From: Rhodopseudomonas sp. P2A-2r
GTDB lineage: Bacteria > Pseudomonadota > Alphaproteobacteria > Rhizobiales > Xanthobacteraceae
Assembly (NCBI RefSeq): GCF_026015985.1
Contig: NZ_CP110389.1
Span: 1,396,001 to 1,460,000 of the forward strand
Direction of reading: 5' to 3'
Length of the DNA: 64,000 nucleotides
In this document: positions 15,234-64,000 of the stretch, one piece after another
How the letters are laid out: each line of letters opens with the position of its first letter
Numbering within the stretch: position 1 is the first letter of the stretch
Made by a program: the position numbers and the translations under genes
The notes under the pieces: model-generated
What the model was told of the DNA's origin: nothing
What the model saw: only the letters and a program-made list of their open reading frames with translations
The model's database searches: none

Positions 15234-15349
15234 GGGCCGCTCCGTTGAACGTCCAGTCCGACATCACAGTTCACATGAACTGCCAGAGGGGCCCGGGCCT
15301 GGACGTGATTACAATAAAAGTCCGCGAGGATCGCCCGCGGGTGTCGTTT

Positions 15350-61248: not shown

Positions 61249-61272
61249 GCGAGCAGGCGAGCGACGATTGCG

Positions 61273-61303
61273 AAGCCCGGGCCGGCGGCCCGGGCTTTGT
61301 TTT
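61273..61303 (+). terminator. intrinsic terminator of phasin 2
   Basis: AAGCCCGGGCC, loop ggc, GGCCCGGGCTT followed by TGTTTTG: an 11-base stem 24 bases after the phasin stop. Confidence 0.92.
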
Positions 61304-61467
61304 GCCGGGATCGGGCGAGCCCGCGCAAGAACTGCCGATTTCGCCGCGCACATCGGCTGAATTCGCCGCAACAAGGCGATTTCAGCCTCCTCGCGGCCTT
61401 GCCAAAGAGATGCGTTGCATCTAGTTTCCCGCCTGTTCGCGACCCCTCGCAGGGGCCGATCAGGGAT

Positions 61468-62237: not shown

Positions 62238-62549
62238 TTGAGCGCTGACTACAAAGCCGAGATCGACCGACATTTCACGCGGTTTGCCGACCGGTTGCCG
62301 CCGAAACCGGCGCAGTTCATCAACTGGCTGCGCAGGCCCTCGTCCCGCCTGCTGAGAATTCCGCTCGCCGGACTATTGGTGGTGGGCGGGACCCTCAGCT
62401 TTCTTCCCGTGCTCGGCCTGTGGATGCTGCCGCTTGGTGTGGCGTTGATCGCCCAGGACGTTCCCATCCTCGAGAAGCCGACGGCGAAGTCGCTGGGATG
62501 GCTGGAGCGCAAGTGGGTCGAGCGTCAGCGCGCGAAACAACACAAATAG
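62238..62549 (+). CDS. small membrane protein (PGPGW-like), hypothetical
   Basis: A 103-residue protein with two hydrophobic segments (LLRIPLAGLLVVGGTLSFLPVLGLWMLPLGVALIAQDVP) and a basic C terminus. The TTG at 62238 has GAGGAG seven bases upstream; a GTG at 62223 overlaps that site and is less likely. The family resembles short membrane proteins with a P-x-L-G-x-W motif. Function unknown. Confidence 0.75.
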   Translation: MSADYKAEIDRHFTRFADRLPPKPAQFINWLRRPSSRLLRIPLAGLLVVGGTLSFLPVLGLWMLPLGVALIAQDVPILEKPTAKSLGWLERKWVERQRAKQHK

Positions 62550-62692
62550 CAGTTTGATAGTTGTCGCAGTCACGGTTCAGTCGCACGACTGACTCATTTT
62601 TAGCCTGCTGCACCGCATTGTGTGCCTCAAAAGACAGCATGGCGGATAAACCCGACCGCTAAAGTGAAGCAGGCGATAAATTTTCCTTTAAC

Positions 62693-62710
62693 GAATCAGC
62701 GCGCTGATTC
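62693..62710. promoter_or_regulatory. perfect 18-base palindrome upstream of parA
   Basis: GAATCAGCGCGCTGATTC, 37 bases before the ParA ATG. No loop, so more likely a dimer-binding operator than a terminator. Confidence 0.45.
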
Positions 62711-62747
62711 ATTTTCGCCTTCTGGGGTCAATCAGGAGGCCGGACAT

Positions 62748-63428
62748 ATGAACGTTATTGTTTTTGCATCGCGTAAAGGTGGCTCGGGAAAAAGCACCCT
62801 TGCCGCTCATCTTGCTGCACAGGTTCACAAGTCTTCCAAGCCGTGCCTGCTGATCGATGCCGATCCGCAGGGATCACTCACGCTTTGGCACAAGCTGCGG
62901 GGCACCAACGAGCCGCCGCTGAAGGTTGCCAATCGCACCGTCAGCGAGATCGTCGCCGCCGCCAAGCGCGATGGAGTCGAGTGGGTGTTCATCGATACCC
63001 CGCCCAACACCTCGGCGGTCGTGGACGATGCCATCAAGAACGCCACCATGGTGATCATTCCGGCGCGTCCCGGCGTGTTCGACGTCAATGCCGTGCAGGA
63101 CACCATTCAAAGCTGCCGCTCCGCCCGCAAGCCCTATGCCGTCGTGATCAACGGTGCACCGGCGCGCCGGGACGACGTGGAGAGCCGCATCGTGACCATC
63201 GCGCGCGAAGCCCTCGCCAAGTTCAAGGCGCCGGTCTGGGCGGGCCAGATCACCAACCGCGCCGATCTGCTGATGGCGCTGGGCAACGGTGAAGGTGCAC
63301 GCGAATACGCCGCCGAGGGTCGCGCGGCCGGCGAAATCAGCAAGCTGTGGGCTGCCATCGAACGCTCGATCAAGGCGATCCGCGGCAGCGCATCGGCCAC
63401 CGGCACCATGCACAAGCAGGCGGCATAA
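62748..63428 (+). CDS. ParA-family ATPase, orphan
   Basis: A 226-residue deviant-Walker ATPase: KGGSGKST at residues 10-17, LLIDADPQGSLTLW and VFIDTPPNTSAVVDDAI (Walker B). No ParB or parS is adjacent, so a plain partition role is unlikely; orphan ParA proteins position cargo or poles. AGGAGG sits seven bases before the ATG at 62748. Ends at an intrinsic terminator. Confidence 0.9.
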   Translation: MNVIVFASRKGGSGKSTLAAHLAAQVHKSSKPCLLIDADPQGSLTLWHKLRGTNEPPLKVANRTVSEIVAAAKRDGVEWVFIDTPPNTSAVVDDAIKNATMVIIPARPGVFDVNAVQDTIQSCRSARKPYAVVINGAPARRDDVESRIVTIAREALAKFKAPVWAGQITNRADLLMALGNGEGAREYAAEGRAAGEISKLWAAIERSIKAIRGSASATGTMHKQAA

Positions 63429-63454
63429 TCTCCGTCTGACTCCGACGACTGAGG

Positions 63455-63477
63455 CGCGCGAGGTTCGCGCGTTTTTT
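63455..63477 (+). terminator. intrinsic terminator of parA
   Basis: CGCGCGA, loop ggt, TCGCGCG then T6, 26 bases after the ParA stop. Confidence 0.92.
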
Positions 63478-63592
63478 GCTGTGGGCGATCGGGCGGTGTT
63501 TGCGCGTGGCGTTGTCCGGCGCCGGCATCGCTGATGCCGAGCCTCTCGCGGTGAGCCTCGACGGCCACGTGCGGCAACCATGCCATCCACGC

Positions 63593-63622
63593 AAAAAAGC
63601 CGGACTCAAATGAGCCCGGCTT
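63593..63622 (-). terminator. intrinsic terminator of the sRNA candidate
   Basis: On the minus strand AAGCCGG...CCGGCTT with an inner CTCA/TGAG pairing, followed by T6. Confidence 0.88.
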
Positions 63623-63727
63623 GAGGTATTGGCCACGTGAGGCCGACACAATCACCTTCCAAGAGGGATAACTGAGAACCCGCTCCGCTGGAGGAGGGGG
63701 ACAAAGCGCAGAACGGGCTCTCAGCGT
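63593..63727 (-). ncRNA. small regulatory RNA candidate with anti-Shine-Dalgarno loop
   Basis: About 135 nt between parA and the LysR gene. On the minus strand a long hairpin (63672-63724; outer stem CTGAGA/TCTCAG and CCCG/CGGG, inner CGCT/AGCG) presents the apical loop GTCCCCCTCCTCC, complementary to Shine-Dalgarno sequence. A second part leads to an intrinsic terminator (63593-63622). A sigma70-like promoter lies just upstream. No ORF fits the stretch. Anti-SD loops are a hallmark of several alphaproteobacterial trans-acting sRNAs. Confidence 0.7.
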
Positions 63728-63733
63728 GCAAGG

Positions 63734-63763
63734 ATTATGTCCCCTGCCGGCGCTGGTGAGCAA
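63734..63763 (-). promoter_or_regulatory. sigma70-like promoter of the sRNA candidate
   Basis: On the minus strand TTGCTC, 18 bases, CATAAT, with the predicted start about 63727, seven bases further on. It lies downstream of the LysR stop. Confidence 0.55.
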
Positions 63764-63811
63764 CGCCTCACCTCGCATGTCAGTCATGCGAGTCCGGGGA
63801 TGGACTGGAAC

Positions 63812-64000
63812 TCACGAAGGCCAGCGCTGCGCCTTGCTGACGATGAAGTCGCGAAACACCTGGACACGTGCCACGGTCTTCAATTCTTCGGGATAGACGA
63901 AGTAGGTATCGAGCTGAATCGAGTCGGACTCGCTGAACAGCTGCACCAGTCGGTTGTTCTCCTCGACCAGATAGTCGGGCAGGGCGGCGATGCCGAGGCC
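63812..64000 (-). CDS. LysR-family transcriptional regulator (C-terminal part, cut by window)
   Basis: The last 62 residues, up to the stop at 63812. GLGIAALPDYLVEEN and LDTYFVYPEELKTVARVQVF followed by FRDFIVSKAQRW are the typical end of the LysR effector domain (conserved G-(I/L)-A-x-L-P-(D/x)-(Y/x) and W near the end). The HTH part lies beyond 64000. Reads into the sRNA region. Confidence 0.85.
   Translation of the reverse strand, partial: GLGIAALPDYLVEENNRLVQLFSESDSIQLDTYFVYPEELKTVARVQVFRDFIVSKAQRWPS

Follow-up and report, generated by a model that had tools for sequence, protein, structure and literature searches.

Organization of the locus

The window (the whole stretch of DNA that was analysed, 64,000 nt from Rhodopseudomonas sp. 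P2A-2r) ended within a LysR-type regulator gene on the minus strand, and a candidate small RNA (sRNA) gene was located directly downstream of it. The gene order at the locus was trxB (fragment), LysR, sRNA. The gap between the stop of the LysR gene (63812) and that of a ParA-like gene (63428) measured 383 bases, as reported in the preliminary description of this DNA. The latter gene, which encoded a ParA-family partition ATPase (62748-63425, plus strand; 144 bits to NF041546, cut-off 180), converged on the sRNA. The following features were assigned:

63593..63727, minus strand: candidate AbcR-like small RNA of approximately 135 nt (fold z-score −6.8, models R1 and R2, covariation)
63671..63725, minus strand: 5' hairpin with an 18-bp stem and a 19-nt loop (minimum-energy fold, covariation)
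63690..63702, minus strand: C-rich anti-Shine-Dalgarno loop GTCCCCCTCCTCC, corresponding in position to AbcR motif M1
63655..63672, minus strand: linker GTTATCCCTCTTGGAAGG, corresponding in position to AbcR motif M2, GUUCCC (three alignments)
63641..63666, minus strand: invariant stretch CCTCTTGGAAGGTGATTGTGTCGGCC, identical in 19 of the 19 sequences of the first alignment
63593..63622, minus strand: Rho-independent terminator, stem 63622-63597 and T run (fold, consensus scan, covariation)
63734..63739, minus strand: predicted −10 hexamer CATAAT (commonest in the lineage: CATACT, CATAGT and CATAAT)
63758..63763, minus strand: predicted −35 hexamer TTGCTC, spacer 18 (commonest in the lineage: TTGCTG)
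63777..63789, minus strand: putative VtlR/LsrB box GCATGACTGACAT at −62 to −50, fitting GCAT-N3-TG-N3-T (consensus in excerpts of PMC7486931 and PMC8844928)
63775-63789, minus strand: dyad GCATGACTGACATGC upstream of the −35 hexamer, pattern GCATG-N-C-N-G-N-CATGC
63812..64000, minus strand: C-terminal part of the LysR-type regulator, a VtlR/LsrB orthologue; the gene leaves the window and extends to approximately 64735 (orthology)

Structure and conservation of the small RNA

The minus strand of 63593-63727 (approximately 135 nt) folded with an energy of −67.3 kcal/mol, compared with a mean of −41.6 (sd 3.8) for shuffled sequences, giving z = −6.8, and none of 200 shuffles reached an equally low energy. 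The predicted layout consisted of a long 5' hairpin, two smaller elements and the terminator. A hairpin previously placed at 63672-63724 was present, the minimum-energy fold pairing 63725-63708 with 63688-63671 and extending about 1 nt further on each side, and GTCCCCCTCCTCC (63702-63690) lay inside its loop, as had been proposed. The terminator (stem 63622-63597 with a T run) was also picked up by a consensus scan. Likewise, the proposed promoter was recovered with TTGCTC at 63763-63758, an 18-nt spacer, CATAAT at 63739-63734 and a start at 63727; overall, the earlier coordinates were accurate to 1-2 bases. A small coding ORF was disfavoured, since the relatives were 129-137 nt long and differed by lengths that were not multiples of three.

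A DNA search with 201 bases gave matches in 19 of 61 genomes, comprising the window's own genome, 16 of 17 congeners and 2 of 19 further genomes of the family; none of the 24 genomes from outside it matched. The single congener lacking a match (G004) was an 81% complete draft. An RNA model (R1) built from these 19 sequences had its best genome-wide match in the window's genome at the sRNA site. R1 matched 256 of 391 genomes of the family at E ≤ 0.01, spread over 29 of 47 genera, and its weaker matches included intermediate sequences. In genome G391, which we take to be B. japonicum USDA 110, R1 located the sRNA at 8121231-8121366 on the plus strand. An exact-pattern scan of named genomes yielded at least 119 stretches; among the matches listed, 105 belonged to Bradyrhizobium, Afipia, Rhodopseudomonas or Tardiphaga and 14 carried broader or odd names. 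When R1 was applied to 25 of the stretches and to two further loci, all 27 matched. The pattern was also carried by a record named Frankia sp. RB7 (L169), probably a mislabelled or contaminated assembly.

For the covariation analysis, 60 of 111 unique CCTCTTGGAAGGTGA-containing sequences were retained after a redundancy cut and aligned with MAFFT. Changes on both sides were found for 17 of the 26 hairpin and terminator pairs (12 of 17 in helix 1). In this alignment 96.2% of the cells paired, compared with 27-47% in slid controls, and none of 500 shuffles reached any of the measures. The loop core CCCCCTCCTCC was present in 57 of the 60 sequences, and loop columns were invariant in the 19-sequence alignment and in a later one. 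The linker was invariant as well, partly by selection in the 60-sequence alignment, whose rows were chosen for the core CCTCTTGGAAGGTGA, but also in the 19 sequences recovered with the 201-base DNA search. Similarly, CCTCTTGGAAGGTGATTGTGTCGGCC served to fetch many of the later rows. In three members of genus g50 (L179, L183, L190; G189, G278, G249), a longer stretch replaced the CUUGGAAGG linker and a CCCCUCCUCC loop was kept, which makes them an additional structural variant. The alignments showed neither stem drift without compensatory change nor an unconserved loop, the pattern named beforehand as speaking against the gene. Compensatory stem changes around a conserved loop indicated selection on an RNA. 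These comparisons strongly supported a small RNA gene that carries an anti-Shine-Dalgarno loop and has its own predicted promoter and terminator.

Promoter region and putative activator box

The −35 hexamer TTGCTC is weak, and a sigma-70 consensus scan of 62500-64000 listed no promoter. This result would suit an untranscribed site consisting of a mere terminator and a fossil hairpin, a reading of negligible probability in view of the RNA-level selection implied by the compensatory changes. A hexamer pair of the form TTG-N3 / (C or T)AT-N2-T was present in 53 of the 60 upstream regions.

Upstream of the −35 hexamer, the dyad GCATG-N-C-N-G-N-CATGC occurred once in the 64 kb window, and the looser 13-base box nine times, counting both strands. 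Among 167 unique sRNA loci (six loci failing the core or terminator test were omitted), the VtlR/LsrB box was found exactly and on the sense strand in 146, mostly at the same distance, and on either strand in 159, counts that are not independent because the loci are related. In G059, a genome from another family of the order, the box was located 60 nt before a match to the Rfam family ar15. At roughly the usual distance, a sequence resembling the box was present on one strand for each of three further AbcR-like RNAs (L271, L275 and L278 in G053, G060 and G055). Excerpts of PMC8844928 place a GCAT-N3-TG-N3-T box at −61 to −49 of the S. meliloti promoter PabcR1, report that its removal cut promoter activity more than 22-fold, and describe S. 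meliloti AbcR1 as dependent on LsrB/VtlR; the published evidence for S. meliloti is conflicting (excerpts of PMC7486931).

The preliminary description had considered that the RNA might be processed from the 3' region of the LysR mRNA. As a 3' UTR fragment, the RNA would have no promoter of its own, and its close proximity to the 3' end of the LysR gene, in the same orientation, would be explained. However, this origin was disfavoured because the −10 and −35 hexamers and the activator box were conserved upstream of the start, in the stretch that separates the sRNA from the LysR gene, and the distance between the LysR match end and the sRNA start ranged from 67 to 718 nt (median 96.5 nt). We consider it highly unlikely.

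Comparison with known RNA families

The Rfam scan of the window listed only tRNA and terC RNA (RF03067; 52 bits, above the gathering score, at 15249-15304 on the minus strand). The covariance comparison of the sRNA site that had been suggested earlier found no family reaching its gathering score there. Weak matches at the site to SMCR2_2, HIV-1_SD, Betaproteobacteria_toxic_sRNA, anti-hemB and MH_s10 looked like chance. The suggested link to BjrC did not hold: BjrC1505 (RF02356, cut-off 50 bits), a conserved sRNA of the same lineage, occupied a different genome position in both genomes tested, with a single match each (5603894 in the window's genome, 1641163 in G391). BjrC68 is reported to be included in Rfam. 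None of the USDA 110 positions given for the northern-validated BjsR1-BjsR10 in the excerpted Table 1 of PMC5082802 agreed with 8121231-8121366. The C-rich loop of the sRNA, and that of the clade as a whole, resembled the CCUCCUCCC motif of other rhizobial sRNAs (excerpts of PMC3927594), including NfeR1 and alpha-r14. Those RNAs repeat the motif in several hairpins (excerpts of PMC3927594, PMC7143759 and PMC8844928), whereas the sRNA carried it once, in hairpin 1. The alpha-r14/NfeR1 type was rejected, as it requires an anti-Shine-Dalgarno motif in three hairpin loops.

The mmgR/suhB family (RF00519, cut-off 41 bits) was also considered. It shares an Rfam clan with ar15, which is said to be partly homologous to SuhB (excerpts of PMC7143759), and a similar CCUCUGGAAGG core was found in relatives of the sRNA. 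The related intermediates L188 and L195 scored 41.1 and 34.4 bits with RF00519, and weak matches of 19-21 bits were located at the sRNA site in G391, G033 and G066. In the window's genome, however, both matches above the cut-off (1366869 and 4994615) were separate copies elsewhere, and the site itself was unlisted even at E ≤ 1. Membership of the sRNA in RF00519 is thus very improbable.

Probable relationship to AbcR

The Rfam model for AbcR1/AbcR2, ar15 (RF02345), gave no match at E ≤ 0.1 in the window's genome (G000). Its gathering score (40 bits) was exceeded in one of 40 genomes searched, G059, which contained three strong loci, two of them in tandem at 127 and 119 bits. Weak ar15 matches were observed in nine genomes of the family, at the R1 site in four (G141, G102, G163 and G093) and away from it in five (G017, G025, G034, G066 and G139). 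The weaker R1 matches in other genera of the family had loops such as CCUCCCAGAU and the linker GUUCCCCUCUGGAAGG, and some of these intermediates scored weakly on ar15 or suhB at the same place.

Two motifs act in Brucella AbcR: CUCCCA (M1) in hairpin 1 and GUUCCC (M2) between hairpins 1 and 2 (excerpts of PMC5461406). M1 was present in 0 of 60 clade sequences versus 8 of 13 intermediates, and M2 in 1 of 60 versus 10 of 13. In the window, CUCCCA was replaced by CCCCCUCCUCC, which leaves the loop anti-Shine-Dalgarno, and GUUCCC by GUUAUCCC (linker GUUAUCCCUCUUGGAAGG). A longer C-rich motif thus stands in for the usual mRNA-binding ones. At the M2 position the window has GTTATCCC, and GTTATCCC or GTAATCCC occurred in 47 of the 60 clade sequences.

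A bridging model (R2) was built from 13 intermediate sequences only, excluding this clade and G059; its members had themselves been found by R1. Among 37 genomes, R2 matched 28 at E ≤ 0.05 and 9 had no match. Its best match in G000 was 1459593-1459727 on the minus strand (E 2.2e-10), and in all 14 clade genomes searched the expected site was the best match (E 2.2e-10 to 0.0106). In G059, the sole three matches (E ≤ 0.05) were the three ar15 loci. Since the R2 members were found with R1, the match in G000 is partly circular, the G059 result less so. Of 20 genomes from other families, 11 had R2 matches, five of which adjoined the LysR orthologue (G046, G048, G049, G051 and G059). Strong matches away from the orthologue were found in G053, G055 and G060, and weak ones that looked like chance in G037, G041 and G058. 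A second, weak R2 match in the window (61269-61388, minus strand; 27 bits, E 0.00135) ended in a GC-rich inverted repeat lacking a T run and is probably also due to chance.

The order trxB, LysR, sRNA corresponded to the published order trxB, vtlR, abcR (excerpts of PMC7486931): as expected of an ar15 member, the sRNA lay downstream of a vtlR/lsrB orthologue that itself follows trxB. The LysR protein of the window and the one beside the ar15 tandem of G059 were reciprocal best matches, with 353 bits versus 137 for the next protein in G000 and 354 versus 125 in G059. In 162 of the 167 unique sRNA loci, an orthologue preceded the sRNA in the same orientation; in the other five, the sRNA was too near the locus end to tell. 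As the protein passed no NCBIfam model, the name VtlR/LsrB rests on this orthology.

Apart from gene order, the sRNA and AbcR1/AbcR2 were alike in having a 5' hairpin with an anti-Shine-Dalgarno loop, a CU-rich linker, a middle hairpin and a terminator, and the GCAT-N3-TG-N3-T box of the sRNA stood at the distance known from PabcR1. They were similar in size (121 and 114 nt in S. meliloti, approximately 135 nt here) and differed in both motifs. Unlike AbcR1/AbcR2, the sRNA was found as one copy, and the Rfam model was unmatched. The LysR protein also differed, as it lacked both of the cysteines that are regarded as the LsrB redox pair. Two cysteines of the G059 LysR protein, 129 residues apart, aligned with valines in the proteins of the window and of G391; from this spacing, they presumably correspond to C144 and C273 of A. 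tumefaciens LsrB (excerpts of PMC11975290). The window orthologue (L001:1723-2646) instead had cysteines at 176 and 243. The orthologue of G046, from another family, had no cysteine at all, so the pair was either lost here or gained elsewhere.

With no Rfam family at gathering score and the known AbcR motifs absent, the sRNA might share no ancestry with AbcR and instead be a trans-acting RNA specific to the lineage, equipped with an anti-Shine-Dalgarno loop and positioned next to the LysR gene by coincidence. Against this stand the graded intermediates with a common layout, the similar box position, the same neighbours, and the recovery of both the clade and the ar15 loci by R2; we regard an unrelated origin as unlikely. 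The support for homology to ar15 in sequence and structure runs solely through the intermediates, in that R2 finds both ends. The sRNA falls short of the formal ar15 family on the Rfam score and on both motifs and is therefore classed as a divergent AbcR variant outside it. It is very probably the Nitrobacteraceae counterpart of AbcR1 by descent and position, an explanation that includes activation by the LysR protein and masking of ribosome-binding sites. The earlier reading as an sRNA with its own promoter, a terminator and a conserved C-rich loop was strongly supported; the AbcR identity and the VtlR/LsrB neighbour had been missed. According to excerpts of PMC7486931, AbcR RNAs are 'found throughout the order Rhizobiales'. 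No recognised report of AbcR in this lineage was found in the literature searched; an earlier mention in Bradyrhizobium is possible, and we do not claim priority.

Proposed mechanism and targets

Given the observed RNA structure and its conservation, the orthology of the locus and the conserved box, published AbcR work suggests how the sRNA may act. Most likely, the GCAT-N3-TG-N3-T box (−62 to −50) is the binding site through which the LysR protein would activate the weak sigma-70 promoter; this step draws on conservation and on experiments published for related bacteria, those for S. meliloti being contradictory. The 135-nt RNA would pair its C-rich hairpin loop CCCCCUCCUCC with Shine-Dalgarno regions and thereby block translation of the mRNAs, and the UCCCUCU linker may pair with such regions as well. 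By analogy with AbcR, Hfq likely assists the pairing, and the targets would probably include many nutrient transporters. The genome contained 67 Peripla_BP_6 matches, some of them fragments, and hence a large transporter repertoire available for regulation.

Pairing was compared between 30 of these 67 substrate-binding-protein matches and 36 ORF starts of the window, with start positions assigned by our own scoring. The loop showed no excess pairing with the 30 substrate-binding-protein starts over the 36 other starts (p 0.45), and 39 of 100 shuffled loops performed as well. For the linker there was an excess (p 0.0095), but the substrate-binding-protein starts also had stronger Shine-Dalgarno sites (p 2.7e-6), a confounding factor, and 58 of 100 shuffles were as good. 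The sequence GGAGGAGGG occurred close before an ATG at seven genome sites (control pattern 0), five of which had reading frames shorter than 40 codons, and was uninformative.

Significance

In rhizobia and Brucella, nutrient uptake is under major post-transcriptional control by AbcR. A counterpart throughout the Bradyrhizobium lineage would be a candidate for controlling uptake globally, both in soybean symbionts and in Rhodopseudomonas. In Rhizobiaceae and Brucellaceae, AbcR is present in multiple copies (excerpts of PMC3712013). The results suggest that an entire branch escapes the Rfam ar15 model, and they offer a natural experiment in which an sRNA swaps its binding motifs yet retains its promoter and partner.

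Tentatively, the AbcR circuit may have been rewired in the Bradyrhizobium-Rhodopseudomonas-Afipia-Tardiphaga lineage, with both motifs replaced, the box, its spacing and the neighbour kept, and an activator that lacks the cysteine pair, yielding an unstudied global regulator of translation. If so, the changes from CUCCCA to CCCCCUCCUCC and from GUUCCC to GUUAUCCC or GUAAUCCC would give a different or broader target set. The activator would work without the presumed redox-switch cysteines, so that the input signal would differ too. The RNA would then regulate translation globally in soybean symbionts and phototrophs.
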